Assembly: GCA_013407085.1 (NCBI GenBank)
Contig: JACCGJ010014817.1
Span: 1-64,000 of the forward strand
Length of the DNA: 64,000 nt
Direction of reading: 5' to 3'
Source of the DNA: Atriophallophorus winterbourni
Lineage: Eukaryota; Platyhelminthes; Trematoda; Plagiorchiida; Microphallidae
The notes below the pieces were generated by a model. That model saw nothing but the letters and a program-made list of their open reading frames with translations. It searched no databases and was not told the DNA's origin. A program made the position numbers and the translations under genes. Shown here piece by piece: positions 11,855 through 62,200 of the stretch; the first letter of the stretch is position 1, and each line of letters opens with the position of its first letter.

Positions 11855-11952
11855 GTAAGCACAACGGTTTGTTTTACATAGACTGGTTTGCTTACTTAAC
11901 CATCCACTAGCTCCATTGTTTATTTCATTCGTTATCATATGCAACCTAAGAG

Positions 11953-14428: not shown

Positions 14429-15040
<612 letters not shown>

Positions 15041-18235: not shown

Positions 18236-19677
18236 CAGCATCTACTAATACAGTAAGTGCATTCTAATTGTCGGTCATAAACAAAATGCCATTCCCAATA
18301 GCTCTATCAACAACGGATTGAAGCTGTTTTGTCTTTTGCATTTTGGTTGGCAGCTGACATTGGGACATACACCGAAACAATAGTAATACTGAAATGATGC
18401 ATCCTCAGACGGACTAATGGAATTCTTGGCGACCCCCTGCATTCATGATATAAGTGCTTGCTGTACGTGATTACTATGAGCTATCGCTATTCGTTGCTGA
18501 CCAGATCCACATTTGTGCCCACCATAAAAGAACCATTCGTAGAATCGGCTTCGGGGGTGTTACTTAGTGTAATGCGGTCCCTGATTGTGATGATGATGAC
18601 TCTGTTTGGCTCCATGCCAATGTAGGCATACTTCAGAAAGACAAGCAACGCCTACCCGATAGTCCAGTAAATTGCGCATCGTAATGGCTTGACTACCCGC
18701 ATCCAGCACTATCCTTGCATTTCAACTTCCTATATAAAAATCGGTATGGCCCCAACTTGTTTACTTTTTATCCTAGCCACTGTAAGTGCTATGCTTCCGT
18801 CGCTTCGCGGGAACGCCGTATTAGGGTGCTGAGATTTGGTTTGGAGTTCCTGGGGACTGTTTTTGATTGCTTATTGCTAATAAAAAATAATCATCTTCCT
18901 AACTAGGTTTTGATGGCCATCAGTAACTAGGATTGACGTTCATGAGAATGTGTTACCAGGCATCCAGAAATTGCTGTCGTTTTTTCAACTGCTTTCCTTG
19001 GTTCGGATGCTAGCGTTCAGAATTCTCGATGGCTTTATAAACTCACAGATATGACTCGATTGTTTTGCATGGCAGTCTTGTAAGGATCTGCTTGACGTGT
19101 TTGACCAGTCTTGTTTGTTGTCAAGTAGACTAGCAGGAAAAGCTTGTTAAGATAGATGAAGCTGAAAGCTGCAAGAAAGCTGCCGTACTGATGTCGCTTT
19201 GCTCCTTCACAAGACTAGGTTGATTACATCAACATATAGTTTTGCTCACCTTCCCGTCACTCACATCCGGCAATCATTTTCTGGTTGTTTGCGTCAATGT
19301 GTCGAGACAGCAAGGTTAGTCTGAATGAATCTTGAAGCAGTGGACAAGTAGTAAACAAAGTTAAACTTTGAGACCACTGTTAACTCGGTACCTTACAATA
19401 AACAAAGGTGTTTATATTCAGAATCTCAAAGCGATTCTGAGTCAAACGCTCAAAACGCTTACAATTAGGCAATGTAATGTTGTTCGCACATCCTCCAGAT
19501 TTACAAACCACAACCGGTTTTTGATTGATTGTCTTCATCCGAGGGAGTCCGTAATATAAAGCTCAGTAAGTCTAGATACACGAATGCATGCCGTATGCAT
19601 TTAATGCGTCTCGTCTCAGGTATAGGCATTTCATCCCAGTTGTGCTTCATCATTGACAGCAATATACCGATAGGAAT

Positions 19678-20231: not shown

Positions 20232-20621
<390 letters not shown>

Positions 20622-20879: not shown

Positions 20880-21020
20880 GCACAACCGACCTGTTCAATC
20901 ACATGTGCACCAGGTCTTGAACCAAAATCCGCATTTACATGCATTTCCATCACTAGCCCAACCACCGGTTTCGTTATGTTTGCACTCATCAGGCAGGGAC
21001 AATACGATCAGGATCATCAT
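20880..21020 (-). repeat. Hammerhead repeat, subfamily 1, decayed copy
   Basis: On the minus strand CTGATGA (20986-20992), GTGC, AAACA and GAAAC-CGGT (ACCGGTTTC at 20964-20972 on the plus strand) are in hammerhead order. Helix II is damaged (GTGC against TAAC), and the base before the cleavage point is G instead of C, so self-cleavage is not expected. The flank after the core (GATGGAAATGCATGTAAAT, then GTGATTGAACAGGT) matches the copy at 51.8-52.1 kb. Confidence 0.75.
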
Positions 21021-28800: not shown

Positions 28801-28935
28801 GTGCCTGAATGCGCATGCGGATCCTGATCCTACTGTCTCTACCTGATGAGTGCAAACAGCATGAAAACTGTCGTGGTTTCTGTCTAATGGAAATGCATGC
28901 AAATGTGCATTTTAGTATTTGTATTTAGTTCTAAA
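28800..28935 (+). repeat. Hammerhead repeat, subfamily 1, partly decayed
   Basis: CTGATGA at 28843-28849, GTGC, AAACA and GCAT (a four-pair helix II with one G-U), GAAA at 28863-28866 and GTC-GTGG follow in hammerhead order. Helix I can form (CTAC with GTGG). Helix III is altered (ACTGT where ACCGGT is expected). The flank GATCCTGATC before and ATGGAAATGCATGCAAAT after match the other subfamily 1 copies. Confidence 0.75.
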
Positions 28936-31299: not shown

Positions 31300-33120
31300 T
31301 TGATAAAAAGCAAACATTTTAGTCAAAGGAGACAAGCAAAGTTTCAAGCACTATCTGAAGTTGGAAATGAAAAAAAACATTTTACTATAGCGAGTTGTTA
31401 TTCCTCGATCAAACGTTAAACCTACCGTGAACGAAGTAACTGCCTCGACTCAAAATTCAGCTGTGCTTCCGTCCACTTTCATGAAAAACTATTCAGCCCG
31501 CTAACAATAACATCGATAGAAGACTTACTGACATCAGTCGTGACGCAACAGATGACTGATGTCGATATCGATTCAGGGGTTTGTACCGAATAAACCAATA
31601 AATATCCCTGGGTTGGACGGAATCACACTTGTTACTAAAAACCCGCGCCAGCAGGTGTGCGTGCGACTGGGTGAACCACTTGCACATACTCTAATTAAAG
31701 GAGTGGTGTTAGCATAGTAGAAGTCTTTGGATATTTCACCAATCTTCAAGAGTAGTAGTTAATTAGATTCTGCAACCTACCGTTCAGTCGCTTACTTCCT
31801 GTGAGATTCATAGTTTTAGGGTGCAGAGTGATGGAAAACATTGCTCAACATCTCAAAATATGCTATCTCCAGCACCGTATGGTTTCCGTAAATCTCTCTC
31901 CTGTTTGGCAAACTTACTGATTGTTTTAAATGACTAAACCCAAGCGTTTGACGAAGAAGCTAGCTTCCACGCTTACTATTTTGATATGTCTGAAGTTTTT
32001 GATCAAGTTGATCACTATTGACTACTAAAAATACTGCGGCAGATGAGCATCAGCCAGCAACTCTGCGTGGCTGTGAATTTACTTCTCTAGCGTAGATAAT
32101 TGTGTGGTTGAACGGAGTACATTCAATAGCCATTAATATGGCTAGTCGTGTACTGAAGGATATGTGCTCAGGCAAGGACTTTTCATCGCTTACAAAGACC
32201 TACCACCGATGCAGGCATGCATGGTGATTCCCATTTGCAGACAATACTAAAATTTGAACAAGGATAGAATCCATTGCGTATCGTTTGCAGCTGTGCTTTT
32301 TCCAATTAGGTTCAGTGAGGAATTGGCTGCCCTACCAATGTCGAAAATAAAAAGTTTCGAAATTTGGCAAGCCATTCCAATACACATAACATTTGCGGCA
32401 GACAATTTTGTGTTGGACCAAGTCGGAACGTGATTTTGGAGTCTGGATACGCGGCGGCCCAAAGTATATGCATTGTGAGCTCATTTACAAGCGTTCTATG
32501 TATTTTAAGATGCTTATCGCCGGAACTTTGCCCATAATTATAAAAGCCCATTAAGTTCAACCATGGTACGCACATCACAAGCTTGGAATACATGGATAAA
32601 AAGATTTTCCGAAGATCGAATGAAGCGGCTGAGCGCCAGCCCGCTTAATAAGCATTCAGAGTGCTGTGATAATTACATACTCAATATTGCATATTCCAAA
32701 TCATCAATTAAAACATTTATTCAAATACCTTGAATCGCGAAATACACACAGTCGCTCACCGACATTACATTCCCATTATGACTATCGCCGTTATTTTTAT
32801 TCTATATGGGTATAATTTTGAGCTCCTTGGAACCCATTTTTACCGCTCCCAGCGTCGAGAGATTCATTCGTAATTTATACACATTTTTTGCCAAGCGAAT
32901 AATTAATATACAAAGCAATACAAGTATAACCTTGTTTACCTTTAATCCACTGTTTCAAGGCTCACTGAACCTTATCTTACTGTCTCTACCTGACAACGGC
33001 AAACAGCCAGAAACCGGTAGTGGTGTGTAAGGGATGGGGATGTGGGCAACACATTACTTTAATATACAATGCTATTTGTGAAGCCAAGTTATTTTGTCAA
33101 CATAAATTCATGAATCGTGT
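31300..33120 (+). mobile_element. CR1-like element, strongly decayed (paralogue of 45.2-46.96 kb)
   Basis: Short RT blocks remain: INIPGLDGITLVTK (31600), GFRKSLSCLANLLIVLND (31890) and a YFDMSEVFDQVDHY block (31975). The 3' part (about 32640-32900, with ATAAGCATTCAGAGTG, TTTTGAGCTCCTTGGAAC and GCGTCGAGAG) matches 46510-46730. A hammerhead repeat sits near its end. Both paralogues are old and non-functional. Confidence 0.72.
32920..33060 (+). repeat. Hammerhead repeat, subfamily 2, mutated core
   Basis: The copy begins inside the unit's end (CAAGTATAACCTTGTTTACC) and runs through TTTCAAGGCTCACTGAACC, the core (32986-33024) and GTGTGTAAGGGATGGGGATG. The catalytic box reads CTGACAA, so the invariant G is lost. 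Helix I (CTAC/GTGG), GGC/GCC and GAAACCGGT remain. Because it spans the unit junction, it derives from a multimer or circle. Confidence 0.78.
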
Positions 33121-33124
33121 GTCT

Positions 33125-35520
33125 TGATTGACCTAACGTCGACCTTCTAAATTTTTCGCCCCGAAACTCATCCTCAATCCTTAATTAAAGCCTGAGGTTC
33201 TTATTCTATCACGCATAATTTCAAAGGCTTTAGCCATCCCACATTCGCAGTTGGATAGCTGCCGTATTTTATAATCTATTACATTCCCTTTAACCTGTAA
33301 CGCGTTACCGTTAGAAATCATACTGTCGGAATCGGTTGCGGTTATCACTTCGAAGCTCGATGATTATATGACTGTCCTAATTAACTCTCGGTTGTGTCCA
33401 AGCCATATACATCGTCATTCTGTTGGATTCTGTTTAGCTGATTGCGTTTTCTATCGTAAATATGTCTGATTTTTGAATGATACTAGATGTAATGTGTAAG
33501 TCTTCCAGTAATGACAATTTGATTGGGCACCTCTCCGGCTAAATTCATAATCATAATAAAAGAAGTCAACAAAGTATCAATGAGTCTGTCCAACAGCAAT
33601 ACTTTTGTCTATGAACCGTAAAATTGGAACCACATTCAACTTAATTACAATTAACAGCAATTTTGTGATTTTGCACACCGACCGTACGATAATAGTTGTG
33701 AATTCGGTGTTGTTGAATATTTTTGAGTAAATCGATTATATACTAATCCAGACAACGCAAAATTTGCTCAAAAGTAATGCACGCATTTCGTCCGAGGTCG
33801 ATCATGTGCACCATATTTTGGCTCAGAGTCATATATCACATTCATTTTTCGAGGGATTGATTTGTCGCAACTCAAGTTGGTGCTAAGAAATGTTCAATAT
33901 GGGTCTCAATCTATAATTAATATACGTAGCCCACCTCATCATCATCATTGGCGAACTGGATGGTTGCATCGTACTAAACGGTTGCAGAGTAATCGAAGGC
34001 TTACTTGTCATCAAAAATATCAATTGCATACATGAAGACGCATTTTCGCGTCCGACTGAATATTCAGTACACACAATATTACCGGTTTGTTTAAATTTAC
34101 GATCAGAAGATATTATTCAGTAGATACCGATTATTTAATATCAATTTGAGCTGTTTGTGAGAATATTGAATTGAAATCAAAGCTAGTAAATATCCCGCGA
34201 AAATTTGTTTCACAATCTGTTACATTCTACTCTTTGTGTGAAACTAACGCACACATTTGCATAAATCACGATTCGTTACCAAACTGGTTCATTCAGTTCC
34301 ATCGGATTTGAGAAAAGTTCCCTTCACCGTCGATCAATAATCATTGTTCAAACAAACCGCCAATCGTGAACTTGAAGTGTCGCAACGCTCAAACCGACCG
34401 GGTTATTCCGCATTGTCCCCCGTCGAGTGCTGTCACAACTGACTGAACATAACTCACAACGAAGAACATCAAAGCATGATGTCACCACCACACTTGCAAG
34501 CTCGACCGGAGGGTGGTAGTCGTGGTGTTGATCTCCCCTGTGGTGGGAGGGTTGCATTCACCACCTGTGTTGGATTAGCGCTGGTAACGCACAGAGAGCC
34601 CATTTATATTGCATAATCATTTAACAATGAGGACCAAATTTAACAGATGGCACCGAGATAGAGGACCATGTGAGCTTGTTTGATCGAAGGAGGTGGTGTG
34701 GATTTACGTCGCGTGATTTGAACACCGCACAGAAAAGGATTAATTTTCATGTGCCCTCTAGTGTTGGTGTGTGTGTGATTTGGCTCAAACGACATGAACA
34801 AACATCGAATGATTGATTGTCCAACCAGGTGAAAATCATGGTAACAGGTTGCGTGGTTTATCCAGGTGTGTGTGAATCTGAACCAAAGTTTCGTTTAAAT
34901 TTTGTGTTGCACCGTGTCGGGTGAATAATATTCTTGAGATCGTTTATGTTTACCATGAATCTCATTAACACTATCGGACGCCACTTATTTCAACGCTAAT
35001 ATCTTATAATGGCAAACCTTTCTACATGAGTATGCTTAAAAATTCACAACAACAGTGAAGCTTATACAGTACAACCAAGCACACAAGATGATTTTATATG
35101 ACCAATGAGTTTATGGCCCGCATCCCTGTCACTTACAATCCACAAAAGAATTTGGTATTTTGTTGTACGAACAGCGTCTTCATTGTCTAACACTACAACC
35201 AATTTCTTAGTGCTTCGAGGCTCACTAAACTCAATCTTACCGTCTCCGCCTAATGACGGCTTACAATCAAAGAACGGTTGTTGAGCGATTCACCTATACA
35301 CTAACACGTCTTCGTTTTTTTTTTAAAAAATGTTCCTCTTGTGGCGAAATCAATCGCATGAAACACCTTTAAATGTAGCTCAAATTGTGAAATCCAGAGG
35401 AATTACTCTTCGAAACGATAGAGCGACGGGAAGGTTGATTTGAATGACTAAACTCAAGAGCTGGGCGTTTAGATATTTTAACAGCATCTACTGAGGATAA
35501 CGTATAAAAGTCAGGAAGAT
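33125..35520. other. Intergenic, almost nothing recognised
   Basis: No conserved protein block was found. A degenerate subfamily 2 hammerhead repeat is visible at about 35205-35285 on the plus strand (GAGGCTCACTAAAC, then CTAATGACGGC). Confidence 0.4.
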
Positions 35521-36779: not shown

Positions 36780-38096
36780 TACAGGTTATGTAGTTAGGAA
36801 AAATTTCATGTATTGTCACGGTATGATGAAAAAATATTCTTTAGGATAAATATCGTGTGGTGAGACAATAAGATCCTTCAGAGACTGAATCATTGAGTTC
36901 AGTATTTTATACGTGAGTATTAAATCCAAGCGAAATCGTCTTCGAGCCATTATATCCAAATTAAAATACACTAGTCGATCGTCACAAGGGAGGTCGCAAT
37001 AAATCATTTAGAGCAGCTTGGTGCCCAAGCTTGCACTGGGTAATCAAAAAAAGTATTTAGAAGTAGAGGGAAGGTTTCAAAGGAGAAACGTCTCAATATA
37101 TGCCGAACCATACCTAGCATGTGGCTAGCTCGGTTGTATACAGATTCGCATTATATGTTGTTCTTCAGACTTCCATTAATCCAAACGCCAAAATCCTTTT
37201 CTTCTGTTGTCCAATCCAGTTGTTGGGATCCAAGTTTGTTAGAGAAAAGGAATTTTTACATTTAGCACTTTCTAATGTAGATGGAAGCTTGTTTCACCCC
37301 AACCAGCTTTTCGGTATATCCAAATCGCTTTGTAAGCGCAAACAGTTCCCGTCTGACTCGATTCGCATCAAACGTTTGGCATCATTAGCAAAATGAACCA
37401 CCTCGGCTGTGACGAGTTTCGGAAGGTCATTGATGTACATCAAAAAGAACCTAACTAAGTACCAATACATGTGTGTCACCGCTAGTAGCTGTGATGTCTC
37501 TAGAGATCACTGTTCCCTTACGATCAAGAAGATAGCTTCTCAGTCAGATAAGATGGACCCATTAAAACCAGGCTCACGCTGCTTGATCAGGATTATAGAA
37601 TGTTCCGCGTGATCAAACGCCTTTAATCTATCCAAGTAGCACGCATGCACGCAAGCAGTCTCATCCATTGCCTGCGTCCAGTCGTTTATAGTCTACGATA
37701 GGTTAGTTAAGCAAGAAGTATACTTCCGAAATCCGTGTTGCTCTAGCGCCAACAATTTTGTGGTTTTCAAATGACTCACGATCCTTTCGCACAAAATTTT
37801 ATCAAGAACATTTGATTTCATAGAAAGGATGTATCAAGGTGGTAATTTGCTGGGTCAGAACGAGTGACACCTTTACAGATGGGTGTTAAGATTCTTCTTT
37901 TACAGTCAGCCGGTACAATACATACCCTCAATGAGTGATTAAATAAATGACAAATTGGTTCACACAATTGACTGTCACATACATTTAGAATTGCAGGTGT
38001 GATCCCGTTGGCTCCATAGGAATTTTTGACATTCAACCAGCTCTTATGTTTCGGGAAATGGGTAAAATGATCCGGTACTAAGTCGCTATGAAACTT
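36780..38096 (-). mobile_element. CR1-like RT relic, cut by the gypsy element
   Basis: The minus strand has RT blocks in order from its right end: NSYGANGITPAILN (38000), CTQAMDET-VHACYLDRLKAF (37620-37680), a YINDLPKLVTAEVVHFAND block (37385-37440; the catalytic FADD is now FAND) and a C-terminal tail (36816-37007). It stops at about 38096, where the gypsy integrase frame begins. Confidence 0.75.
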
Positions 38097-38101
38097 CAGA
38101 G

Positions 38102-39355
38102 ATGGGAAAAATCCGCCGAGTCCCGATACCCGATTCTCCACATTACCTGGTTTGTGACATGGCAACAGGAAAACCGCGTCCGATCGTCCCATCAGACATG
38201 AGACGTAGAGTTTTTGACCACTTGCATGGTTTTTCACATCCGGGAGTAAGCGCGACACGAAAATTAATAAGTTCTTGCTACCTCTGGTCTGACATGCATA
38301 AAGACATACAACTTTGGACAAAAAGTTGCTTGCGATGTCAACAGAGCAAGGTTCAACGACACACTATCAGCTACCCTGGTACGTTCCCACCAGTTACTGA
38401 ACGTTTCCAACACGTGCATTTGGATCTCGTGGGCCCACTAGCAGTCTCTAACGGATGTTGCTACATACTTACCTGCATTGATCGTTTTACGCGTTGGCCA
38501 ATGGCAGTAGCAATCCCTGATATCAGTGCAGAAACTGTTGCTAAAGCTTTTGTTCAGCACTGGATCAGTAATTTTGGCGTACCAAACACCATCACTACTG
38601 ACCGAGGTTCCCAATTCCAATCAACGCTTTTCAAGGAACTGAACAACATGCTCGGTACGAAACACATTCAGACTACAGCCTACCACCCTTCTCCGAACTG
38701 CTTAGTCAAAAGATTTCACCGCCAACCGAAAGCCTCACTCATGTGTCATGGGAATACTGAACGTTGGTCCGAGACACTACCCCTAGTACTTCTTGGTATA
38801 CGTACCGCAGTGAAAGAAGACCTAGGGTGTTCAGCTGCTGAAATGGTGTACGGTAGTACACTAACCCTTCCAGGCGAATTCCTGACATCTTCCGACTTAT
38901 CATTGGACCTTACCGTGCCACAATATGTCAGCCGCCTTCGCAGCTTCATGAAAAACTTACGAGCTACCCCAACTCGACAGCATGTTCAACCCTGCTACAT
39001 TCCACCTGACTTGAACATTTGCGACTTTGTGTTTGTGCGGGTAGATCATGTAAGCCGACCGCTACAGCCGCCATACACTGGCCCGTACAAGGTAATCAAC
39101 AGGTATCCAAAATACTTCGTTATTGACCGCAACGGAACACACGAGTCCGTCAGCGTCGATCGTTTGAAAGTAGCCTACGTCGAACCGGCACCAGAGGCGA
39201 AAGAAGATACTCCGAACGTTGCTCCTCAAGATTTTGTCCCTCCACCCCCCAAACAGAAGGTCACCGGTACTCCCGATCCCCCAACGAAACCCTCTTTACC
39301 CCGATCTGGTCGTAGAGTCCATTTTCCATCAAAGTTTGATGACTTCACAGCCTAA
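38102..39355 (+). pseudogene. Ty3/gypsy-type integrase, catalytic Glu replaced
   Basis: A 417-codon open frame with an HHCC zinc-binding domain (His42, His46, Cys76, Cys79) and an RNase H-fold core. Asp108 (HLDLVGPL) and Asp167 ([10 protein letters not shown]) are present at normal spacing. The third catalytic residue, 36 positions after Asp167, is Lys203 (CLVKRF) instead of Glu. The C-terminal domain continues with GPYKVI and [12 protein letters not shown] and ends in a Pro-rich tail. Protease, RT and RNase H that should precede it are absent. Integrase inserts LTR-element cDNA into host DNA. This one should be inactive. Loss of upstream pol and the broken triad mark a dead copy with a still-open frame. 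Confidence 0.88.
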
Positions 39356-41389: not shown

Positions 41390-42142
41390 ATGAGATTGAA
41401 CCTGTTCTTCTAAACTTTTACTTGCTTCGTAACTGTTCACAGACTAAATGTCACATACATGCTGATATTCCGTAGTGGAAAAAAAACGTAATTTAAACAA
41501 TAGAGAAAAAATCTGACTAAAGCACTGTGGTTCTTCTTGGTGTTCCCGAGCACACTATCACTGCTTCGGGATGTAAAATACAGCACCACGATTACAAACA
41601 GTGGCTTTATGTTGCCAACAGCATCGCAGCTCACGAGTTAGTCGTGTTGGACACGTTTAGAATACCTCGGTCACCAAACTATAAAGGTGACGGGCCAAAA
41701 CCTCTGAAAATAGCATTTTTAACGAAAGGGCCAACTGGAAAGCTAATCATAGGAATTTACCGAAGGATGTCAGAAAGAGTTACCACAAACTTTCTACGCC
41801 GAAATCGCCTAATGAACCACGGCTTCTACAATCAGATGAGACTCCGATTAGAAAGAACGTGGAAATCCCCAAAAACGACCGATGCCTGACTCTCGAAGGG
41901 TCGGACAAATAGGCGATATTTCAGCTCCATCACTATATACGAAAACCACAATCAATTGCCTATATACCAACACACAATGTCTGGTGAACAAACTAGCTGA
42001 ACTGAAGGATCTCTGTAATCAGCAATCACTCGACTTCATAGCAATAACTGATCCATGGTTCCAACATTACGTGAGCCATCGTAACCTCTCTATTCCAAAC
42101 ATGACCCTGTTTCGGAGTGACCGCTTAAGAACAGGTGGTGGA
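41390..42142 (+). mobile_element. CR1-like 5' part (ORF1 end and endonuclease start)
   Basis: ORF1 piece (41527-41889): VVLLGVPEH, the YKQWLYVANSI block and IPRSPNYKGDGPKPLKIAFL. This matches ORF1 of the 48-51 kb element (SIVLLGVPDYAADD, HKQWKYLAEKIG, MSTNYKGK). The endonuclease follows in an overlapping frame from 41882: INCLYTNTQCLVNKLAELK, DFIAITDPW and LSIPNMTLFRSDRLRTGGGV. The frame is cut exactly where the tandem hammerhead array begins (42143). Confidence 0.8.
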
Positions 42143-42301
42143 GTAAACAAGATTATACTTGTATGCCAACTGTTATATAGGGTTCGTACAACGAACCACG
42201 ATGTTCAGACACAGAATCACAAAGTGATTCTTGGTCAAAGCACTCAAGGCGCTTGTGGATGACCAAAGTAATGTGTTGCTCACATCCCCATCCCTTACAC
42301 A

Positions 42302-42339
42302 CCACTACCGGTTTCTGGCTGTTTGCCGTCGTCAGGTGG
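42302..42339 (-). ncRNA. Type I hammerhead ribozyme core, array unit 1 (subfamily 2)
   Basis: On the minus strand, helix I strand CCAC precedes CTGACGA. Then come C-GGC, loop AAACA, GCC-A, GAAA, ACCGGT, cleavage base A and the helix I partner GTGG. CTGANGA and GAAA are the invariant cores. Weak points are a C/A mismatch at the first helix II pair, and helix III (ACCGGT) that is a loopless palindrome and would have to pair between two copies. Confidence 0.7.
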
Positions 42340-42545
42340 AGACAGTAAGATCAGGTTCAGTGAGCCTTGAAACAGTGGATTAAAGGTAAACAAGATTATA
42401 CTTGTATGCCAACTGTTATATAGGGTTCGTACAACGAACCACGATGTTCAGACACAGAATCACAAAGTGATTCTTGGTCAAAGCACTCAAGGCGCTTGTG
42501 GATGACCAAAGTAATGTGTTGCTCACATCCCCATCCCTTACACCA

Positions 42546-42583
42546 CCACTACCGGTTTCTGGCTGTTTGCCGTCGTCAGGTGG
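42546..42583 (-). ncRNA. Hammerhead ribozyme core, array unit 2
   Basis: The core is identical to that in unit 1, 244 bp further on. One extra base lies next to it (CACCACCACT), which accounts for the longer unit. Confidence 0.7.
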
Positions 42584-42788
42584 AGACAGTAAGATCAGGT
42601 TCAGTGAGCCTTGAAACAGTGGATTAAAGGTAAACAAGGTTATACTTGTATGCCAACTGTTATATAGGGTTCGTACAACGAACCACGATGTTCAGACACA
42701 GAATCACAAAGTGATTCTTGGTCAAAGCACTCAAGGCGCTTGTGGATGACCAAAGTAATGTGTTGCTCACATCCCCATCCCTTACACA

Positions 42789-42826
42789 CCACTACCGGTT
42801 TCTGGCTGTTTGCCGTCGTCAGGTGG
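42789..42826 (-). ncRNA. Hammerhead ribozyme core, array unit 3
   Basis: The core is identical to that in unit 1, 243 bp after unit 2. Confidence 0.7.
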
Positions 42827-42983
42827 AGACAGTAAGATCAGGTTCAGTGAGCCTTGAAGCAGTGGATTAAAGGTAAACAAGATTATACTTGTATGCCAAC
42901 TGTTATCCACAAGCGCCATGAGTGCTTTGACCAAGAATCACTTTGTGATTCTGTGTCTGAACATCGTGGTTCGTTGTACGAAC

Positions 42984-43540
42984 AAGAGGACCACGGCGTA
43001 TGAATTAGTGGAAGTCTTAGGTATATTATGCAATGCGAAGCAGTGTACAACTGAGCCAGCCGCATGCTAGTTATGGTTCGCCATATTTTCGGACATTTTT
43101 CCGTGAAAAATTTCCCTTGGCTCATAAATACGTATATTAACCCTGTGATTGATAACTCAGTGCAAGCGTGGGCACAATGGCTACAAAAATGTCATCAAGC
43201 TGCTCGAGAAGATTAATCACAGAGCGACTAAAATGGTTGGATACACTGCCTCGCAGACGGGCTCGATTTGATCTAATATTAACTTAGAAAATAATGAACT
43301 CAAAGCTGAACCCCCAAGCCATACCACCACTGGCATTTGATATGCCACATTCTCGCCGGAACTTACGTCGGTTGTTTTATTCCGCGCGTGGTGTTTCTAA
43401 TGGAACTCCCTACCGTCAAATGTTATTCAATCATCTAGTGAAAAGATTTTCAGGAACAAATTGGATATATTTATGCTTAGTAATTCCACCAAACATCCCA
43501 TTTATATAACACGATATTTATCCTAATTAATATTTTCTCT
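42984..43540 (+). mobile_element. CR1-like 3' part, continuing after the array
   Basis: RT tail blocks on the plus strand: MVRHIFGHFS, FPWLINTYINPVIDNSVQAW and WLQK (43070-43190), then MPHSRRNLRRLFYSARG (43340-43395). The central part of the element, from mid-endonuclease to late RT, is absent and replaced by the array. Confidence 0.75.
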
Positions 43541-43944: not shown

Positions 43945-44660
43945 CAATCTCGTAAATTCGTCTGCTTCAGAATTGTCCCTGATGACTGCATCACATTAAT
44001 GCAGATCAAAATCATGTTCTTCAAATTTGTATGTACCACAAAATTATTTTGTGGGTAGCAGAATTCAGCCAGTATTCGCCCATTCGACTTTAATTAATCT
44101 GCTTAACGTCTGCGTCGCAGCTATCGTTTGAACTACCTGGCTGAACAGCGAATTAAGCCTTCCGCAAATTCTGTTTATTTAGCGGAGCCTCTTGTGGCGT
44201 TACGTGATATAGCGTTTGATTTAGGTTGGTTTTACTATTTAGTGAATTATTATTGGCATTTACTATTTACTTCAATGTTTCAATTTTCGATAACAGTTCT
44301 CAAAATATTTGATCCGATCTTCTATGTTCCCAGACTGTGATACATTGGTCTCGGTTACGTTTGACGACTTTTTCGACAGACACTGCACATATAACCAACA
44401 TCAGGAAGCTCCGCATCATTCATAAACAAAACTGCCTCTCGTATCAAAACTTTATCGTAATTAGTGGATATTTTAATATAGTACATATAACACATGACTA
44501 CTTTTCCCACTTTTCTCACTTACAACATTTTCTCAAATTTTTCACAAGTCACGCGTAGTTTTTTTGGGTCCTGACATCCGACGGTATTTGAAATCGAGGT
44601 TGTCTGATCTTCGAATGTGAGCATCGTATTTCCTTATAAGAACACTATTCAACAGTGGCA
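43945..44660. other. Intergenic, nothing recognised
   Basis: AT-rich, with two short ORFs and no conserved block. Confidence 0.4.
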
Positions 44661-44810
44661 TACAAGTATAACGTTGTTTACCACTTTACCATTGTTTCAA
44701 GGCTCACTGAACATGATCTTACTGTCTCCACTTGATGACGGCAAACAGCCAGAAATCGGTTGTGGTGTGTAAGGGGTGCGAAAGTGAGCAGTACAATATA
44801 ATGTGAGTTT
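44660..44810 (+). repeat. Hammerhead repeat, subfamily 2, single copy
   Basis: It starts in the unit's end (GTGGCATACAAGTATAACG), then TTTCAAGGCTCACTGAAC and the core at 44727-44768. The box reads TTGATGA (first C lost), helix III reads ATCGGT and the cleavage base is T. It is probably inactive. Confidence 0.75.
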
Positions 44811-47884: not shown

Positions 47885-48419
47885 TATAGATTCAAGATTC
47901 AAGATTTATGTTTGAAAAAGATATTACCTTTACAATAACCACAGGGTGGAAATATAGGTACAAATGTATAAATAAAATCAAAATCAATGGGACAATGATA
48001 GCTTATTAATAGTTTGGGGCAAAATTCGGATTAGCTCTCATATAATCGTCAAGTTTTGATTTGAATATAGATAAGCTGTTTGAGCTTACCAAATCGGAAG
48101 GTAGAGAATGCCAAGCAAAGCACACACGTACGGAATAAAAATACCTGCGGCAGTTTCGTTTGGAATGTGGTATTTCCAACTTGCAACCATGGCCACGGCT
48201 GTTGCTGGAAGTTCGAAGGTGGAATAATATATCCAGGGGGTGGGAAACAGTAGTTAGTATTTTGTATGCGGTGATGAGATCACCTCGCATTCTCCTTTGT
48301 GCAAGTGTACTCATTTCCAGTTGTCTGAGTCGCCTGGCGAATGACATATTTTCGAGACCAATGACAAGCTCAGAAGCCATATGCGATCCAGGAGTAAGAT
48401 GTCCAGGCTTGTGCGGCAT
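47885..48419 (-). pseudogene. CR1-like ORF2 C-terminal end and 3' UTR
   Basis: This continues the element's ORF2 in another frame. The tail has LVIGLENMSFARRLRQLEM, RRMRGDLITAYKIL and PHSKRNCRRYFYSVRVCF, with stop near 48006. Compared with the nested copy at 1.86-2.47 kb, about ten residues after QAWT are deleted, and this deletion causes the frame change near 48390. The 3' end shows a duplicated TTGAATC at about 47891-47905 (minus sense), a CR1-type terminus. Confidence 0.82.
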
Positions 48420-50877
48420 AATCTAGAACCGGGTGTATATATGTATTCATCATGAGAGGAAAACACCCCGGGGAAAAACGTCCAAATATCCGCCGTAGCA
48501 TGCCGAGCAGCCGAGACGCGCTTTTGTAAACGGTTTCGCATTGTAGACCATTTTTCAAACTGCCGCAAATCCAGACACCTAGGTCCTTTTCTTTTTCAGT
48601 GTACTCCAGGTTAATGTCGCCGAGCTTGTATGGATAGGAAAAGCCAAGGTCACGACCAATCTGAATCATCTTCGACTTTTGCATATTCAATGACAGTTTA
48701 TTTTCAGATGACCAGTTGAACAAAGCACTCAAATCGTTTTGCAGCAAGATACAATCGTCAGCATTTCTGATTTGCCTCCATACTTTTATATCGTCAGCAA
48801 ACAAAACCATCTTACTATCATTTGGTAGTGGTATATCGTTCATATAGACTAGAAACAGTATTGGTCCAAGCACTGAGCTTTGTGGAACTCCGCTAGTGAC
48901 ATCGATGTTCTTCGATAATAGGCCGTCCAGACGAACTCGGATGTGTCTGTTGCTGGGGTAATCTCTTAGCAATTCGTATAGTCTTCCAATAACACCGTGT
49001 TTCTTTAGCTTGTTCAAGAGTAAATTGTGATCAACTCTGTCGAACGCTTTAGAAATATCCAGGTAGCACGCATGAATACAGCCCCCCGCATCTACAATCT
49101 TCGTCCAATCGTCTAAGCTTGTCAGCAAATTTGTTAGACAAGAGCGATTTCTGCGAAATCCATGTTGGGCAACTGCCAAAAGTTGATTCGTTTCCAGATG
49201 TCGCACGATTTCTGCGGTTATTATTCGCTCAAAAACTTTTGATACCGAAGACAGCAAGGTCACCGGCCTGTAATTTTTAACATCAGAACGGCAACCACCT
49301 TTGTAAATGGGTATTATTTGTCCCAGTTTCCAGTCTTGTGGCACTACGCCAGCTTGGAGCAAATTATTAAACATGCAAGATAGAGGTTCAGATAGCTGCG
49401 CATGGCAGGTTTTGAGCAGCTTTGGAGTTATCTCGTCTGGTCCTGGAGATTTCTTTACGTTTAATTTTCGTAAGTACTGCGCTACCACCATCGGAGTAAT
49501 CAATACTTCACTCAAGGTCGGTCGGTCAAGTCGAACGATTGGTTCCTGATCAGGCTCCATGGATTTCGGCGCAAAAACTCCGGCATAAAAGTCTGCTAAC
49601 AGGTCAGCGGTCTGATTTATGGATTCTGTGAAGCCGGACGAAGTTTTCAGGGCAAAGACTCCTGGTTTAATATTTGTTCTATCGTTTACCAGTCTATACA
49701 AGAGCTTCGGATTCTGGTGCATCTGAGTAATCAATTGCGATTGGAACGCTTGTTTATCATCTCGAATTAAGCTGATAACTTTGTTTCTCAGTCGTGTAAA
49801 TTGTGCCCAAGAATCAGCTGTGTTGGTAGCCTTGTGAAACTCCCACGCTACTGCCCTTTGTTTCATCCACTTTTTAGTCCTGCTTCGTAGTAAAAATTTA
49901 TTTCGTTGAGACGTTTTCTTCAAAGCAAACATTGAATGTTCCTCCAATATAGATTTGAGGTGCTGTAAGAGAGATCGCCAATGACTATCCGGATCGGAGT
50001 AATCCAGTTGTGCGAAACTAGTGCTTTGTAACTCGGCACACAGAGCACGGTAGTTCACCATTCTGACGCATTTTGTCCCGTCACTATTGCGTCTAGCGCT
50101 ACAAACGTACTCGAATTCTAGGACAACGTGATCGCTTCGTCCGATCGGCGGTTTATAGATGATAGTTCCTACAGCGGTATGTTTAGATGTAAGTATCAAG
50201 TCCAAGGTAGACGGCCTGTCAGCTCCCATCATACGAGTAAATCCTTTAACGTGGTTATAGAGGGGTGTGTAATCCAAGACTGCTCGAAGTTCGTGTTCAA
50301 ATGTCTCTGGTGGATGATCATCACGGTTATATAGCTGGGGAAGGTTGAAGTCTCCCATTATCAAAATTTGAGTGTTATATCGCGTTGTTACATATTGCAA
50401 AGCAGTAATCAGTTTATTGTTCAGGTCGAGGTTCGCGGTTGGAGAACGGTAAATCACTCCAATAACGCACTGGTCACCAGAAGTAAGAGTTATAGAACAC
50501 CAAAGCGTGTCGGGTATATCCAGATTTTGGTCATTCATAACTCTGCAAATAAATGATTGATTGCAGTAGAGTGCTGCTCCTCCACCATCACTCAAACGAT
50601 CACGTCGAAATAAAGACATGCTTGGTAAAGAGAGTTCTAGATCAGAAAACGAGGTAGTGAACCACGTTTCTGTTATGGCAACTATGTCTGGGTTCGTTTC
50701 ATCACAAATCTCGGAGAGTTCGTGCAGCTTATTGATCAGGCTGTTTGCGTTCGTATAGATGCACTTAATTGTGTTTTTTATGAGTAATGACGGGGTGTAA
50801 GCTGTTTGGTTCAGCAATTTGCTAGAGAGACTTTGTGTGTTTGTATATAAACAATCAATAAAGTTTGTAGTGTTCAT
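48370..50877 (-). CDS. CR1-like ORF2, near intact (endonuclease - reverse transcriptase)
   Basis: This 835-codon frame starts at ATG 50877. The APE-type endonuclease spans about residues 33-250: IKCIYTNANSL, VAITETWF, GVIYRSPTA, MGDFNLPQL and GRSDHVVLEF. RT follows with VKKSPGPDEITPKLLKTC (about residue 470), HGFRRNRSCLTNLL, CYLDISKAFDRVDHN, SGVPQSSVLGPILF and the catalytic FADD at residues 693-696. The frame ends early through a small deletion that moves the last 130 codons into another frame. The N-terminus carries an apparent duplication of the first endonuclease strand. It is the best-preserved autonomous-type element here and a possible reverse transcriptase source for non-autonomous repeats, but it is not proven active. 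Confidence 0.9.
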   Translation of the reverse strand: MNTTNFIDCLYTNTQSLSSKLLNQTAYTPSLLIKNTIKCIYTNANSLINKLHELSEICDETNPDIVAITETWFTTSFSDLELSLPSMSLFRRDRLSDGGGAALYCNQSFICRVMNDQNLDIPDTLWCSITLTSGDQCVIGVIYRSPTANLDLNNKLITALQYVTTRYNTQILIMGDFNLPQLYNRDDHPPETFEHELRAVLDYTPLYNHVKGFTRMMGADRPSTLDLILTSKHTAVGTIIYKPPIGRSDHVVLEFEYVCSARRNSDGTKCVRMVNYRALCAELQSTSFAQLDYSDPDSHWRSLLQHLKSILEEHSMFALKKTSQRNKFLLRSRTKKWMKQRAVAWEFHKATNTADSWAQFTRLRNKVISLIRDDKQAFQSQLITQMHQNPKLLYRLVNDRTNIKPGVFALKTSSGFTESINQTADLLADFYAGVFAPKSMEPDQEPIVRLDRPTLSEVLITPMVVAQYLRKLNVKKSPGPDEITPKLLKTCHAQLSEPLSCMFNNLLQAGVVPQDWKLGQIIPIYKGGCRSDVKNYRPVTLLSSVSKVFERIITAEIVRHLETNQLLAVAQHGFRRNRSCLTNLLTSLDDWTKIVDAGGCIHACYLDISKAFDRVDHNLLLNKLKKHGVIGRLYELLRDYPSNRHIRVRLDGLLSKNIDVTSGVPQSSVLGPILFLVYMNDIPLPNDSKMVLFADDIKVWRQIRNADDCILLQNDLSALFNWSSENKLSLNMQKSKMIQIGRDLGFSYPYKLGDINLEYTEKEKDLGVWICGSLKNGLQCETVYKSASRLLGMLRRIFGRFSPGCFPLMMNTYIHPVLDYAAQAWTSYSWIAYGF

Positions 50878-51424
50878 ATCATGAGAGGTTATTGGGGGTC
50901 CGACTCTGTCAGAGCCGGAATGCTCACGTTTTTTTGAAGTGGCGCATGAGGTTCCAATTGAACTGTGACACTTGGCGTAGGTTGATCAGTACTATCCGTT
51001 TGCTGAATTTCGGTTTCGATCCTGGGCAAGCTTAACTTTACGTTTTAGGGTAGATATCTTCTGTTTGACTTCCATTCGCGTTTGACATTATCGGTCATTT
51101 CGGTTGTCAAAAAGGTTATCTTCAGAGGGCTAGGACCTTGCCTTTATAGTTTGTAGACATCGGCATCCTGAAAGTGCTTACAAGTATGGATGTTTTAACG
51201 CCGATCTTTTCAGCTAAGTATTTCCACTGTTTGTGATCGTGCTCAAACTTTTGAGAAGGATCGTCTGCAGCGTAATCTGGAACACCCAGAAGTACGATAC
51301 TTCTTGGATTATTTTCCTCTCGACATTTCTTTGTCGTCCTTCGCTCCCACCATGGTAGATCCGGAAGGATACGACTTTTAGAATTGGAAACATCTCTAAG
51401 CTTGATAATTTTGAAAATAAACAT
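50878..51424 (-). pseudogene. CR1-like ORF1 remnant
   Basis: The minus-strand frame (ATG 51424) encodes RSIVLLGVPDYAADDPSQ, HKQWKYLAEKIG and FRMPMSTNYKGK, matching ORF1 at 41.5 kb. It stops after the NYKGK block. The rest of ORF1 (PLKIAFL onwards) is deleted before the ORF2 start, leaving about 240 bp of frame-broken sequence. Confidence 0.72.
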
Positions 51425-51815: not shown

Positions 51816-51820
51816 CAATG

Positions 51821-52100
51821 CATGTAAATAAATATGTTGGTTCACGGTTATGGGTATAACCCCATTAAACATGTGTTTGGACACATGTGATTGAACAGGT
51901 TGGTCGTATCGGCCACAGTGGCACCCAAGCGCTCTTTGTTTACCATCCCTCCATTGTTTCAAGCGCATACGGATCCCGATCTTACTGTCCGTACCTGATG
52001 AGTGCAAACAGCACGAAACCGGTCGTGGGGTGTGTGATGGAAATCCATGCAAATAAATATTTTGGTTCAAATTGTATTTTGTTTGCGTCTCATGGGTACA
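51821..52100 (+). repeat. Hammerhead repeat, subfamily 1, slightly more than one unit
   Basis: CATGTAAATAAATATGTTGG (51821) and CATGCAAATAAATATTTTGG (52046) are 225 bp apart. This gives the subfamily 1 unit length and shows that the copy extends past one unit. GTTTCAAGCG precedes the core, as TTTCAAGGC does in subfamily 2. Confidence 0.75.
51989..52030 (+). ncRNA. Type I hammerhead ribozyme, consensus-perfect core
   Basis: CTGATGA (51995-52001) is followed by a perfect helix II (GTGC 52002-52005, loop AAACA, GCAC 52011-52014) and GAAA (52015-52018). Helix III bases ACCGGT (52018-52023) come next, with cleavage base C52024 (GTC triplet). Helix I pairs CCGTAC (51989-51994) with GTGGGG (52025-52030), with one mismatch and one wobble. 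All invariant core bases are present. Helix III has no loop, so activity would be expected from paired copies (dimeric hammerheads), as described for short-helix-III hammerheads. Confidence 0.82.
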
Positions 52101-52854: not shown

Positions 52855-53145
52855 TAACCATCCCTGGCATGCGGTTCCTGATCATACTATTGTTACCTGA
52901 TGGGTGTAAACATCACAAAACTGGTTGTGTGCCGTGTGTGCCGTACAAATACGGATTTTTCTTTAATCCATATATCCAGTTAAATATTTATTTATAAATA
53001 GCTGGTGAGTTCAGTAGATTAACTATTTGTGAACTTTCGGCAAAGACCAACACATCATCGAAAATGAGATCAACAAAAATACCCAGTTGCATGCATTTTC
53101 ATCTCGTGTTGTTTGCACTCATCAGACACGGACAGTACACTGAAG
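52855..53145. repeat. Two decayed hammerhead repeats in opposite orientation
   Basis: Plus strand 52870-52935: GTTCCTGATCATACT, then CTGATGG, GTGT, AAACA, TCAC and ACTGGTTGTG. Minus strand about 53095-53145: CTGATGA, GTGC, AAACA, ACAC and a degraded GAAA (GAGA). Both lie in subfamily 1 flanks. Neither has an intact core. Confidence 0.65.
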
Positions 53146-55300
53146 CAGTTCAACAGTTACTGAGCTAATGTGAAGCTGTTTCAAATCTCCATCAATTAGG
53201 CCTAGTGCACTATCTAGCGCACAAACAGAATTTCGGTGATTGTTATGCTTGTAAAAAGACTGCAAACAAGTAATAACTTTGTTTTCCATGATTTTCATAT
53301 GCCATAAAATCTTCTTGTGGGCAGAAATTTAAAGTATTCCCAGCATTTGGCAATGCTGTCAAATATGGAAGAGCGTTTGGTTATTTGAATATTTATTTTT
53401 TGCGTACATGATCTCAATAACGCGGGGGTGCACCTTTCCGAGCAGGATATTGGTCTACTGTAAATTCTATTAACCATCATTAGAAACACCTTACCAGATA
53501 CCAAGGACCCATCAGCTGATAGTTCATGTGTATTTTACTGATGTACATCTCCGTTTTACCATCGAAGTTATAGTCGAATTGATCTGGCAGCTAATATTTC
53601 GCAAAAAGTATTCTGTCCACAAATATACATTGAGGCCAGTCTTATATGCTGTGTCTTAATAAATAGCAAGGAAAGTACATATGATAAATTAACCCTCACA
53701 GTTCTATAATGTAGTGAACGATACTTAGATGGATAATGCTGTCAAGTTTGTCTCGACCACAATAAATTACTCGCATTATATCCAAGCTGCCATTTATAAT
53801 ACATAAACTTTCAGTTTAAACCTCATTTTCCTCGTATTTAGAACTCAAACGACTCGTCAATTTGTCTTCACTACAACGATTTATTTCCTTATCCTGTTCA
53901 TTGGAAGTTTTTCGCTGTAGGGATTCCAATTTGGTGTGCTTTTGACTAGAATATAAATTTATCTCCCATCATAAACGAAATGTTTAGAATAAGTCTAATT
54001 TCTATGCAAAATCGATTAAAGTATCAATTTTTATTACATTTCCTTCAAAACGTTTTTTACAACAAAGTAGCTTGCCTCCATGAGCATTCTTGATTATTTG
54101 AGGAATCAATATGTTGTGGACAAAAAGGGTGAAATATCTTAATTTTTATTCGAAAATATTCGAAATTTCAGTTTACGTTAATGGTTAATAAAAAGAAAAT
54201 ACTAAACACGCTACTGTATCACATTTATATCAACGAGATAAATGAGTTCCAAATTGTTCTATGTCAACATCCCTTCAACAGTGAATTCTTGAGGAGGAAA
54301 GAATTAATGATCACTCATATAGTGATGTTCCAGATGAAAATGTGATATGTTTTGATTGAGTAGTAAGAGAAAGATTTAGATTGGGCTATTTCGTTGTGGA
54401 AAAATTGGGAATTATCAGCGAGATTATTAATAATGAGCCAATCACAGTATGTATTCGAAATCATATAAACAGGCACATCGCATATTACTCAAAAATAGAC
54501 AGTTCCATATATTTTAAAAATATATTTCCGTGTTGACCCAATGATTTCCAAGTGGCCAAAGCTTACCTGCAGCTTAATTGGTACCAACCGGCAGTTTGTC
54601 AATTGGGCGAACCTGTTGTATTAATCGTCACAAAAAATACCAGTACTAAATTTAGAGCTGGACATTGGGAGTAATTACGATTAAGCACCTTTTCTCAAGA
54701 GTGAAGACAGGCTGGGATTTGAACCACGATTCATTCGTGCCTACGTGCTGTAACTATGAAATAATCCGTAAAACTAAATTCTATATTTCTCAACATTGGA
54801 ACTGTGTGCAATGACAATTTTTCCACGCCCTGCATTGCCTAGTTTTGAGACACTGGATAATTTACATTACAGATACAAAAAAGGCTTTCCACAAAATCTA
54901 AGAATGTGCATATCCTTGAAAGGATGAGAAATTTTGGAATTGAAAATTTCTGCTTGCATTACATCAAATATATGTTAGTGATTTGTGTCCGTGTGAGCGT
55001 ACTCACGTCGAGTACAATTAGGTAGTTCTTTTGATTCTGTGAGAATTCCAGTTCCCGTCAGACATATTTGTCATTTTGAATATAATGACGGAGATAAATC
55101 GAAAGAAATTGATTGACGAGACATTCCAAACATTGTGAAGAATAACTGACTGGAATAATCAGTTGTGGTATTTTAAGCATGCGGAGATGAGCAAGTGAGT
55201 GATATACACGATTTCTTTCAAGTCTACGAATGGAGGCTTTTTAAGAGTCAGTGTCAGTTCGTCGCAGAATGCGTCTATCACCTAATAATCAACCAGACGG
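53146..55300. other. Intergenic, nothing recognised
   Basis: AT-rich, with stop-dense frames and no repeat match seen. Confidence 0.4.
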
Positions 55301-55324: not shown

Positions 55325-55620
55325 GTTCGTCGCAAAACTGAACCTAATCTTACTGTCTCCATCTGATTACGGCAAACGGCTAGAAACCGGTTGTAAGTGT
55401 CCTGGAGGTGAGCAACACCATACATTGTTCGATTCGATGCGAATTGATCGCTTGAACAAGGTTGACGTTTTGATTGTGTATTTGAAAACCGGGGTTCATT
55501 GTATGAACCATACAAACAGTGGCATTGAAGTGAACCTTTATTTATCACTTTTGCACTGTTTATAGTCTCACTGTACCTAATCGTATTGTTTCCACCTGAT
55601 GTCGATTTGACCAACATGCT
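55325..55620 (+). repeat. Decayed tandem dimer of the hammerhead repeat (subfamily 2)
   Basis: The core box CTGAT occurs at 55363 (then TACGGCAAACGG and GAAACCGGTTGT) and again at 55596, 233 bp apart. The bases between follow the array unit in order (GAGCAACAC, GTTCATTGTATGAACC, AGTGGCATTGAAGTGAACC, CTGTTTATAGTCTCACTG). Both cores are mutated. Confidence 0.72.
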
Positions 55621-55639
55621 TTAAAATAAATTATTATAA

Positions 55640-55780
55640 ACATAGGCCGATGGTCAAAGTGATGTGTTGCTCACATCCCCCGAAATTAAACTCCACTACC
55701 GATTTCTGGCTGTTTGCCGTCATCGTGGTTCTTTGTACGAACCCTATGCAACAATGGCATTCAAGTATAACCTTGTAGGC
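55640..55780. repeat. Hammerhead repeat fragments joined head to head
   Basis: 55645-55724 is antisense unit DNA with the core (CTACCGATTTCTGGC, TTTGCCGTCATC). From CATC at 55721-55724 it switches to the sense strand of another part of the unit (GTGGTTCTTTGTACGAACC, GGCATTCAAGTATAACC). Confidence 0.7.
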
Positions 55781-59200: not shown

Positions 59201-62200
59201 TCATCCTAGCTGAAATTTGTTACATCTCTCTCATTATACACAACTGCGCGGTCCCCCGTCAAAACACTATCAACATTACACATGTGCAACTATGTAGCAG
59301 TTTCCTTACTCACACGGTATGTCTGATACCTTTTTGAAATGTCAATGGATACCAAAAATGGACAAGTATGCATTCGCTTTCAAAAACGTTTTATGATATT
59401 TTTACCATCCAACCGGATAAACGTTTCGTGGGTCTTTCAAAGCATAGCTTTTTGACCACATAATTTATGAATATATATATGAATAGACATTAAACCTGGC
59501 ATTACTGTAAGAGAAGAGACAAATCTGTTTCATGAAGTAAGATTGAGTCTATCACTTAAAGTTTTGTGTAACCGTGTCACACAAGCCTCGTTCTTCTCAC
59601 CCAAAGTATAATTTATAATTTAATAAAACAAATGCTTTTTTGTAAAACGTTTCAATTCGAACTTCAATTTTTCATATAATACTTCCTTAACACGCAAATG
59701 TATGACGATTGATATCAATCAATGAATTAATTAATCAAGGATTCAACAAAACAATCATGCAATGAATGCAATCGAACTTATATGAAAAGATTTACTAGTG
59801 GAGGTGTGATCATGAAATCTATAGTCGATATTAATAACCTTGTTTATATAATATTAATAATAATTATTGTTATAACTTGCACGGGTACTTCCCATTCACT
59901 GCACCTTTCTGTAGTCAATCTACTCAATCGTACTCTGGGTATCGATCGAAATATTGCATGGTACTTTCAATAACTTCACTGTTGTTGTTGAATTCCTTCG
60001 GTCGCTGTCGACCATGGATCAACATCGCAAGCGCACGTGTCTCTAAAACGCAGTGTTTCGTTGCTTATATCAACAAAACTTGCAATCCACCACAAGTTTC
60101 TAGATCTTTTCCGTTGTAAATAGGAGACATGATTATTCGTATCTGTCATCATATATCAACTGCTATATCAAAGATCATTCATGCTATATGTAACATGATG
60201 TCTTAGCTAAAACGAACAATCAGTAAATAATTGCAGTTAAATTCATCTCGTACGTAGAAATTGTAGGTATAATGTATGTATGGACACTGGATTTAGAGTT
60301 TGTTTTAAACCATTGAACCGAAGCTGAAATTTCGATTAAAAGTATCTATATTTTCGCTTTATGTCTTATAAAGATTATCTCACGATATCGAAACTCATGT
60401 GACTAAACCTATTTTATATGAAAACAGTGGAAAATGTCAACTTTAGGCATTACAGCTAGAAAGATACAGAACAAGGCTAGCAAATTTTTTATGTATCAGG
60501 TACAATCGAAGAATAAGAAAATAACTTCATTTATGTTGACGAATTTTTAGCAAATAAAATGATTTTACCAGAAATTTGAGAAAGAATGACAAGACCACTC
60601 TACATTAGATTTCAAATTTCCAGTCCCGCCTTTAACTCTCCAACAACCATTACCCAGGTATCAAGCAAGGTAAAAAACTAAAATTATGTGAAATGTTCAG
60701 TTCTTCAATAAGGAAAAACTGTCTTCGCTTGGAAAAAATGGTCTACTGACAGTAAGTCTCCAGTGATTTAAATGTGCACCATCGGTAGTCTGTTGCGTTC
60801 ACAGTGGTGACGATCGACAGTCGTGTACCAAATTAATATCCAGGATACGCAACTCAAACTTGCCGACAGTAATACCACATTTTAATTGTAAATAATCCTT
60901 ATCCAGGAGACCGGGAAAAATTATAGCGATGTTTAGAGGAGGAGCGGAACATCTTAAGAAACAACTAAAGGTTTAAGGCCATTAGGTGGGATGGAGGAAA
61001 CGGAAACTACGGGCGTAGATTAACAGCCGTCGATGTTTCAAGAACTGAACGGTCAGCTGATTGGTCTATTTTAGAATCTCGGACACTCTAACACCTATAT
61101 ATTTAAAGCTACATAATCTCAGGGAAAAGTAGGCAATCAGAAACTGTTGGCTAAATGTACAGAATTGTATGAAGTATATAGAACTGATTTAGAAACATTC
61201 CCAAGAATAACGTAAGATAAAAACGAATGAAGAAAATTTTTAAATGGCTCATGTAACACGGTGCAAAACTATTTAGGTAATTACTTTTCGCCCTGAAACC
61301 TTCAATGTATATATTTATGTGAACCACAATGTGTTGTGCCGAATAAATGCAGCATTCATTTCAAACTGTTACTTAATTCTATTGCAATAGAAATTTTGTA
61401 CAGGCGCGAATTCTACCACATTAATTTTCCACTATATCAACGCGTAGCGGTAATAAGAGGCATATGCGCAAGTAGAGTGAATTATATGTTTTTGATAATA
61501 CATATCAAGCTCTACAACGCAGACGTAAGAAACGATGTTATCTGATTACCTCGTCAAGCAACTGAATAGGCGTTTACCAGTTCACCGGATCTTTTGTTTG
61601 TAGATACATCGGCAGTACAACACGGAAACTAGAAAATCAAATATCTCTAAACCACATAAGTTAGCTGTGTTCTCTCTGGTTTGCATGGTACCCACACAAC
61701 TTGTTACTAAGACTTAGCTGAAAATTTTTGTTCGTGATCACTTGTTTATTTGCCCCTCATTGGCACCAACCTAACCAGTTTAATCAATATCACTTGACAT
61801 CGATTTCCGTTTCATGTTTCATATCATATTCATAGTTCAGTTTTATTATTCGTGTATTGCAAAACTAGTTGTGAACTACCGAAAATGATGTCCTTCGATC
61901 TAACAAGGTTTTTAATTTACAAAACGAGAATTTTAGTCAGCTATGCACAGAAATATGGAAATGAATGTGAAACGGACACTAGAATATGGTCGCCAGCCTC
62001 AAATCGTATCTAGAAATATTGGAAACTCCAAACTTAGTGAACAATAAGTTGAAAATCAAAGAGAGGTTTTACCAGCAGTAACATTTTAACCAACATTTAG
62101 CTGGACCTCATACCACTTAAATCTGTTGACGCTTTGAGACTGATGATACATATTATTCTATCATCGTAAAACTGTTTGAATTGTTAAGTGGAAATTGAAC

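Follow-up and report, generated by a model that had tools for sequence, protein, structure and literature searches.

The window, by which we mean the whole stretch of 64,000 nucleotides that was analysed, contains a tandem array of short units that lies between two pieces of a CR1 element and has the minus strand as its sense strand. The array and its surroundings are made up of the following features, with unit positions numbered in the sense direction from the first sense base of unit 1 at window position 42385.

41927..42142, plus strand: left CR1 flank, matching residues 65-136 of the other CR1 protein in the window
42143..42385, minus strand: unit 1, 243 bp
42181..42197, minus strand: hairpin of unit 1 with the 7-bp stem GGTTCGT/ACA/ACGAACC, recurring in units 2 and 3
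42213..42231, minus strand: hairpin of unit 1 with the 8-bp stem AGAATCAC/AAA/GTGATTCT, recurring in units 2 and 3
42386..42629, minus strand: unit 2, 244 bp, with one additional base
42630..42872, minus strand: unit 3, 243 bp
42873..42906, minus strand: partial fourth unit, 34 bp, 100% identical to unit 1 positions 1-34
42902..42983, plus strand: inverted unit fragment, 82 nt, unit positions 123-204 in opposite orientation
42980..43180, plus strand: right CR1 flank, matching residues 798-864 of the other CR1 protein in the window

Analysis with Tandem Repeats Finder describes 42143-42906 as a repeat of period 243 with 3.1 copies and 99% matches, which bears out the three head-to-tail units of 243 or 244 bp recognized in a first-pass annotation of this DNA, and the two hairpins that it placed at 42213-42231 and 42181-42197 are present there. 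The annotation also took the array to extend as far as 42983. Tandem units do continue to 42906, but the interval 42902-42983 is an inverted copy that is 98% complementary to the unit sequence and not a forward unit. Read in the sense direction, the order at the locus is the inverted fragment (42983-42902), the partial unit, unit 3, unit 2 and finally unit 1. The GC contents of the three units are 44.9, 45.1 and 45.7%, that is below 50%, and the units are non-coding, with no open reading frame (ORF) of at least 95 amino acids lying within the array and two ORFs overlapping its edges. The 7-bp hairpin stem has undergone a two-sided change in a copy at 55 kb that keeps its pairing (GGTTCGT/ACGAACC to GGTTCAT/ATGAACC), and it is partly lost in other copies.

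CR1 similarity ends at 42142 on the left of the array and restarts at 42980-42986 on the right, and approximately 660 CR1 residues (~2 kb) are absent between the two flanks where the array sits. Among 120 listed CR1 relatives 60 were tried and 15 match both flanks; for 13 of these 15 there are 655-677 residues missing, and for the other two (P0028 and P0039) the right match lies farther downstream, with 829 and 828 residues missing, respectively. The earlier description of an insertion inside a CR1 copy is correct as to CR1 flanks on both sides, but the element has not just been interrupted as some 660 codons are gone. This scar could have arisen either from one insertion that deleted CR1 sequence and had its 5' end inverted by a process such as twin priming, or from two insertions in opposite orientation that were joined by a deletion. 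The best CR1 relatives that carry a species name are from Paragonimus westermani (49% identity) and Dicrocoelium dendriticum (39%), which fits the trematode source that had been suggested; nine better matches precede these two, and the stork Mycteria americana appears among the relatives only from rank 19. Elsewhere in the window, an 871-amino acid CR1-type ORF with endonuclease and reverse transcriptase domains (48370-50985, minus strand) is a possible source of LINE machinery.

Putative hammerhead cores of the array units

On its minus strand, each unit of the array carries one putative type I hammerhead core, with helix I formed by CCAC/GTGG, at the following positions.

42302..42339, minus strand: hammerhead of unit 1, predicted cut 42306/42305
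42546..42583, minus strand: hammerhead of unit 2, predicted cut 42550/42549
42789..42826, minus strand: hammerhead of unit 3, predicted cut 42793/42792

In the sense direction each unit reads CCAC-CTGACGA-CGGC-AAACA-GCCA-GAAA-CCGGT-A, with GTGG located beyond the predicted cut, which falls at unit 80/81, and the predicted products between the array cut sites are 244 and 243 nt. An internal loop interrupts helix I, which also has the outer stem CTTA/TAAG, and helix II ends in the loop AAACA. The first pair of helix II, numbered 10.1/11.1 in hammerhead nomenclature, is a C.A mismatch in all three array units, and in an alignment of copies it is non-standard in 8 of the 12 rows that have letters at this pair. 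The helix III sequence ACCGGT allows either one A-U pair under the palindrome CCGG, or two pairs that close a loop of 2 nt, and is predicted to form no stable intramolecular stem. Of the core elements listed in the first-pass annotation, CTGANGA, GAAA and helix I are found in every unit, but ACCGGT makes an unstable stem and the base of helix II is a C.A mismatch.

Searches with Rfam did not identify a hammerhead in the array, either at the gathering score over the whole window or at E <= 10 with array pieces of 1101 bp and 71 bp; the 71-bp piece returned only a microRNA row at chance level. Failure of the Rfam hammerhead models to match the unit had been named beforehand as an outcome that would count against the annotation, and for the array this is the outcome that was obtained. 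Our own hammerhead descriptor, which was composed after the array had been seen, matches nothing in the window except the three array cores. By itself this result is modest evidence, because 200 first-order Markov surrogates give 0.03 descriptor matches per window and 6 of the 200 contain any match.

Dispersed copies, templates and insertion marks

A covariance model (R1), built from 14 rows of window copies and with E-values that are rough, was used to search the window. This search returned 18 rows at E <= 1, three of which are the array; 14 others have E < 0.01, and one row with an E-value of 0.59 was left out of the count. The 14 rows fall at 11 further places, located at 19 (two rows), 21, 28, 33, 35, 44, 52.0, 52.9, 53.1, 55 (three rows) and 60 kb; 11 of the 14 are training rows that match by construction, and the rows that start at 19243, 60062 and 53072 are outside the training set. 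The sequence is therefore not restricted to the array locus, a restriction that the first-pass annotation had regarded as adverse to its proposal. Two related families are present in the window, family A with a unit of 243 bp and family B with a period of ~225 bp, as derived from a 28-nt match that is 89% identical at 51817 and 52042. The two families are 68% identical over 342 columns when both are aligned as doubled units, and the family B unit has a GC content of 47%. The copies outside of the array are as follows.

19239..19580, minus strand: older family A copy, 1.4 units, with two degenerate hammerheads
20936..21019, minus strand: family B hammerhead copy
28816..28901, plus strand: family B hammerhead copy
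32918..33060, plus strand: family A copy, unit 222 to 121, with the 11-bp target duplication TTAATATACAA (32903 and 33059)
35223..35306, plus strand: degenerate hammerhead copy
44618..44798, plus strand: family A copy, unit 179 to 117, with the 8-bp target duplication AATGTGAG (44614 and 44800)
51817..52069, plus strand: family B copy, period ~225 bp, hammerhead at 51989-52030 with G-C at 10.1/11.1
52870..52955, plus strand: degenerate hammerhead copy
53072..53150, minus strand: degenerate hammerhead copy, outside the model's training rows
55337..55776, no single strand: family A copy with forward pieces 55337-55604 and 55721-55776 and an inverted piece 55649-55724
60062..60147, minus strand: degenerate hammerhead copy, outside the model's training rows

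The copy at 55337-55776 is a second family locus with an inverted piece between forward ones, and inversion may be a recurring event in insertions.

Pairing within the hammerhead was assessed with an alignment of 14 rows, 13 of them distinct, in which 14 pairs were scored. Over these pairs 80.9% of the cells are paired as compared with 27.7-48.3% when partners are slid, and none of 500 shuffles equals this value. One helix II pair is G-C in seven rows and U-A in four, and the adjacent pair has one A-U row. The covariation score of 0.183 compares with a shuffle mean of 0.138 and is reached by 2 of 500 shuffles, which ignore the relatedness of the rows. The number of pairs changed on both sides (three) and the number of further pair types (11) are not above shuffles, 207 and 289 of 500 of which reach these values, respectively. 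In the family B copy at 52 kb, helix II is GTGC/GCAC with G-C at 10.1/11.1, and Rfam Hammerhead_1 matches with 24.5 bits (E 5.4e-4), which is under the gathering score of 34. Considered together, the dispersed family, the helix II pairing kept across families A and B and the Rfam match of a relative argue more strongly for a hammerhead than the descriptor does. Patterns for the A- and B-type hammerheads found no match in virus and prokaryote contig collections, a result of little weight as near records are possibly absent from these collections.

Copy structure bears on the template for insertion. The 33- and 44-kb copies cross the join between units, and the 19- and 55-kb copies are longer than one unit; thus, their templates were multimeric or circular. 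A single diagnostic site within the array bears on the choice between these forms of RNA. At unit site 234, units 1 and 2 and the partial unit have T and unit 3 has C, and this is the only site at which unit 1 departs from at least three agreeing relatives (C in four of four). Repeated copying of one circle should give the same base in all units, so an exact reversal would be needed to obtain the observed pattern. This one site is therefore more easily explained by a multimeric RNA with unlike units, or by later conversion between units, than by a single circle. Predicted circular folds of the hammerhead strand have 58-63% of bases paired for the array units, with z values of -1.3 to -1.6 relative to shuffles, and 52% paired with z +1.0 for the family B unit; unit 2 as a linear molecule has z -2.1. 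By these predictions the published trait of being "highly self-paired" is not clearly present. The plus strand of 42143-42872, which lacks the hammerhead, has a more stable circular fold (z -2.6 to -3.2).

Target duplications were sought at nine places, with the 52.9-, 53- and 60-kb copies set aside. The duplications of the 33- and 44-kb copies were first spotted by eye and tested afterwards: the 11-bp duplication at 33 kb is equalled by 0 of 4000 control pairs, and the 8-bp duplication at 44 kb by 70 of 4000, which is marginal for nine places tested. At the other seven places, including the array, there is no target duplication above chance, and two boundaries tried for each of the 19- and 28-kb copies likewise gave none. 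The 3' ends of the 33- and 44-kb copies lie at unit 121 and 117, within the AC-rich stretch AGCAACACATTACTTT, and their 5' ends differ (unit 222 and 179). With a looser alignment the 44-kb copy extends back to unit 147 and the 33-kb copy runs past its own duplication.

The retrozyme reading and its alternatives

As described in PMC7229834, animal non-LTR retrozymes consist of tandem units of ~170-400 nt with low GC and one type I hammerhead per unit, and have dispersed copies, some with target duplications of more than 4 bp; the repeats of this window are like them in these respects, with a hammerhead that is putative. Judged by unit size, GC content, tandem arrangement, long target duplications and the putative type I hammerhead, the array and the dispersed family appear to be best read as such elements. 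Specifically, we propose with a probability of roughly 0.7 that a non-autonomous non-LTR retrozyme family recently inserted at this locus as a multimer, the genome being probably that of a trematode. The retrozyme interpretation of the first-pass annotation is in this way retained on the strength of the dispersed family and the two target duplications, but it must accommodate an array that has no Rfam match, no target duplication and an inverted end. The novelty first ascribed to the array is lowered by prior work, as two papers report retrozyme-like repeats from platyhelminths generally (PMC7229834) and show Schistosoma mansoni repeats as putative retrozyme RNA (PMC4918200). A published description of families A and B was not found in a search whose scope lay outside supplements and most subscription papers. 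By analogy, these families would constitute additional animal non-LTR retrozymes with a ribozyme design that is close to that of amphibian repeats.

The likeness to amphibian repeats concerns the weak parts of the ribozyme. According to PMC7229834, most invertebrate retrozymes possess a helix III that is stable and undergo cleavage as monomers, whereas helix III is here of the amphibian kind. For example, axolotl Amex1 is like family A in having a one-pair helix III under a palindromic tetraloop, and axolotl Amex2 in having a mismatch at the base of helix II, which is U.U there and C.A here; their units are 330 and 350 bp as compared with 243 and ~225 bp in the window (PMC7229834). Unlike either axolotl repeat, family A combines both weaknesses. 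The same paper gives 6% and 22% cleavage in an hour for Amex1 and Amex2 monomers, with dimers far better. The predicted energy of the dimeric topology is -23.7 kcal/mol versus -5.8 for one cis monomer in family A and -15.5 versus -3.1 kcal/mol in family B, and more stable alternative homodimer folds are predicted for both (-31.7 kcal/mol for A and -35.7 for B). Given the weakness of helix III and of the base of helix II, cleavage as a dimer is more plausible than the simple cleavage of a multimer to unit length that had been assumed in the first-pass annotation, which needs revising; cleavage in family A probably needs a dimer.

The steps that we infer, namely transcription, cleavage, circle formation and use of a helper, would proceed as follows. 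Minus-strand transcripts of tandem copies would carry one hammerhead per unit, and two hammerheads would pair through the palindrome ACCGGU for efficient cleavage, in the manner of newt and axolotl repeats. A tRNA ligase may close the cleaved units to circles, or the RNA may remain multimeric, and the reverse transcriptase of an autonomous element, either Penelope-like or LINE, would then copy this RNA at nicked target DNA.

An alternative is that the units represent parts of the pseudo-LTRs of a Penelope-like element (PLE), so that the array would be a coding-less PLE derivative and not a separate retrozyme family. The minimal helix III and the tandem arrangement of the array are in keeping with this, as PLEs with minimal hammerheads are described in reviews as having tandem copies and little or no helix III. 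The two readable 3' ends are also suggestive. According to PMC11167929, PLE insertions end in an AC-rich stretch downstream of the hammerhead, like the two copies with 3' ends at unit 121 and 117. Reverse transcription by a purified PLE begins within an AC-rich stem-loop, and mutation of the hammerhead does not prevent insertion (PMC11167929). The shared 3' end region of these two copies may by analogy be a lead to a start by a PLE reverse transcriptase, and PLEs are named as strong candidates for mobilising retrozymes in PMC7229834. However, a PLE should have a reverse transcriptase/GIY-YIG coding region between tandem pseudo-LTRs, and no ORF of at least 95 amino acids lies within the array, the units directly adjoin with no coding region between them, no reverse transcriptase or GIY-YIG coding region was found with the units, and Pfam detected no GIY-YIG domain in the 19 ORFs that were scanned out of 58 window ORFs of at least 95 amino acids. 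Additionally, helix I with its internal loop and outer stem CTTA/TAAG is unlike the minimal type that reviews describe. A PLE derivative is therefore unlikely.

It is quite unlikely that the array is an ordinary satellite in which one hammerhead unit was amplified locally by unequal crossing-over, without a multimeric RNA template. Units that are 99% identical and number only three and a bit would suit such an origin, and the base of unit 3 at site 234 could come from conversion between units, but the copies at 19 and 55 kb are likewise longer than a unit, the 52-kb copy has its 28-nt self-match one period apart, and dispersed copies with target duplications are of the RNA type of insertion. 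Another candidate is a SINE-like element resembling schistosome SMalpha, in which a promoter of tRNA origin would drive transcription by RNA polymerase III. It has a trematode precedent in that PMC8490949 reports a hammerhead in SINE-like repeats; SMalpha / W36.2 are, by their description, trematode repeats with a type I hammerhead, as is putatively the case here (PMC8490949), and a schistosome repeat contains a tRNA according to PMC4918200. In contrast, no tRNA was found in this window, and the best box B of family A scores 8/11, which 154 of 200 shuffles reach; box A has a raw score of 10/11 on the other strand. With no tRNA in the window and a box B no better than shuffles, a polymerase III promoter is unsupported, and a SINE of this type is very improbable.

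Within the retrozyme reading, a more specific account can be put forward for family A, which we consider possible though on the unlikely side. Penelope-type machinery would copy multimeric and mostly uncleaved RNA from an AC-rich start just downstream of the ribozyme, the weak and dimer-dependent ribozyme would be dispensable for each move, and insertion could delete kilobases and invert the 5' end. Copying of this kind would explain why the C.A mismatch is shared, why the 3' ends lie at unit 117-121 and why site 234 has its pattern.

The route by which animal retrozymes re-enter the genome is unsettled as to which reverse transcriptase is used, whether the template is circular or multimeric, and whether cleavage is needed or not. 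The window has two related families side by side, B with a sound helix II and A with a broken base pair, and together with readable copy ends, target duplications and a young array with a diagnostic site this makes it a useful test case for their spread.

The window has several additional features. A protein search with 11014-11910 found no relative. A 429-amino acid ORF at 38066-39355 (plus strand) with integrase zinc-binding and core domains is a piece of an LTR-type retroelement, and a separate tandem repeat of period 86 with 1.9 copies is located at 15425-15584. Finally, the ORFs at 14429-15043 and 20232-20624 (both plus strand) contain C2H2 zinc fingers by Pfam and presumably resemble exons of the transcription factor YY1.
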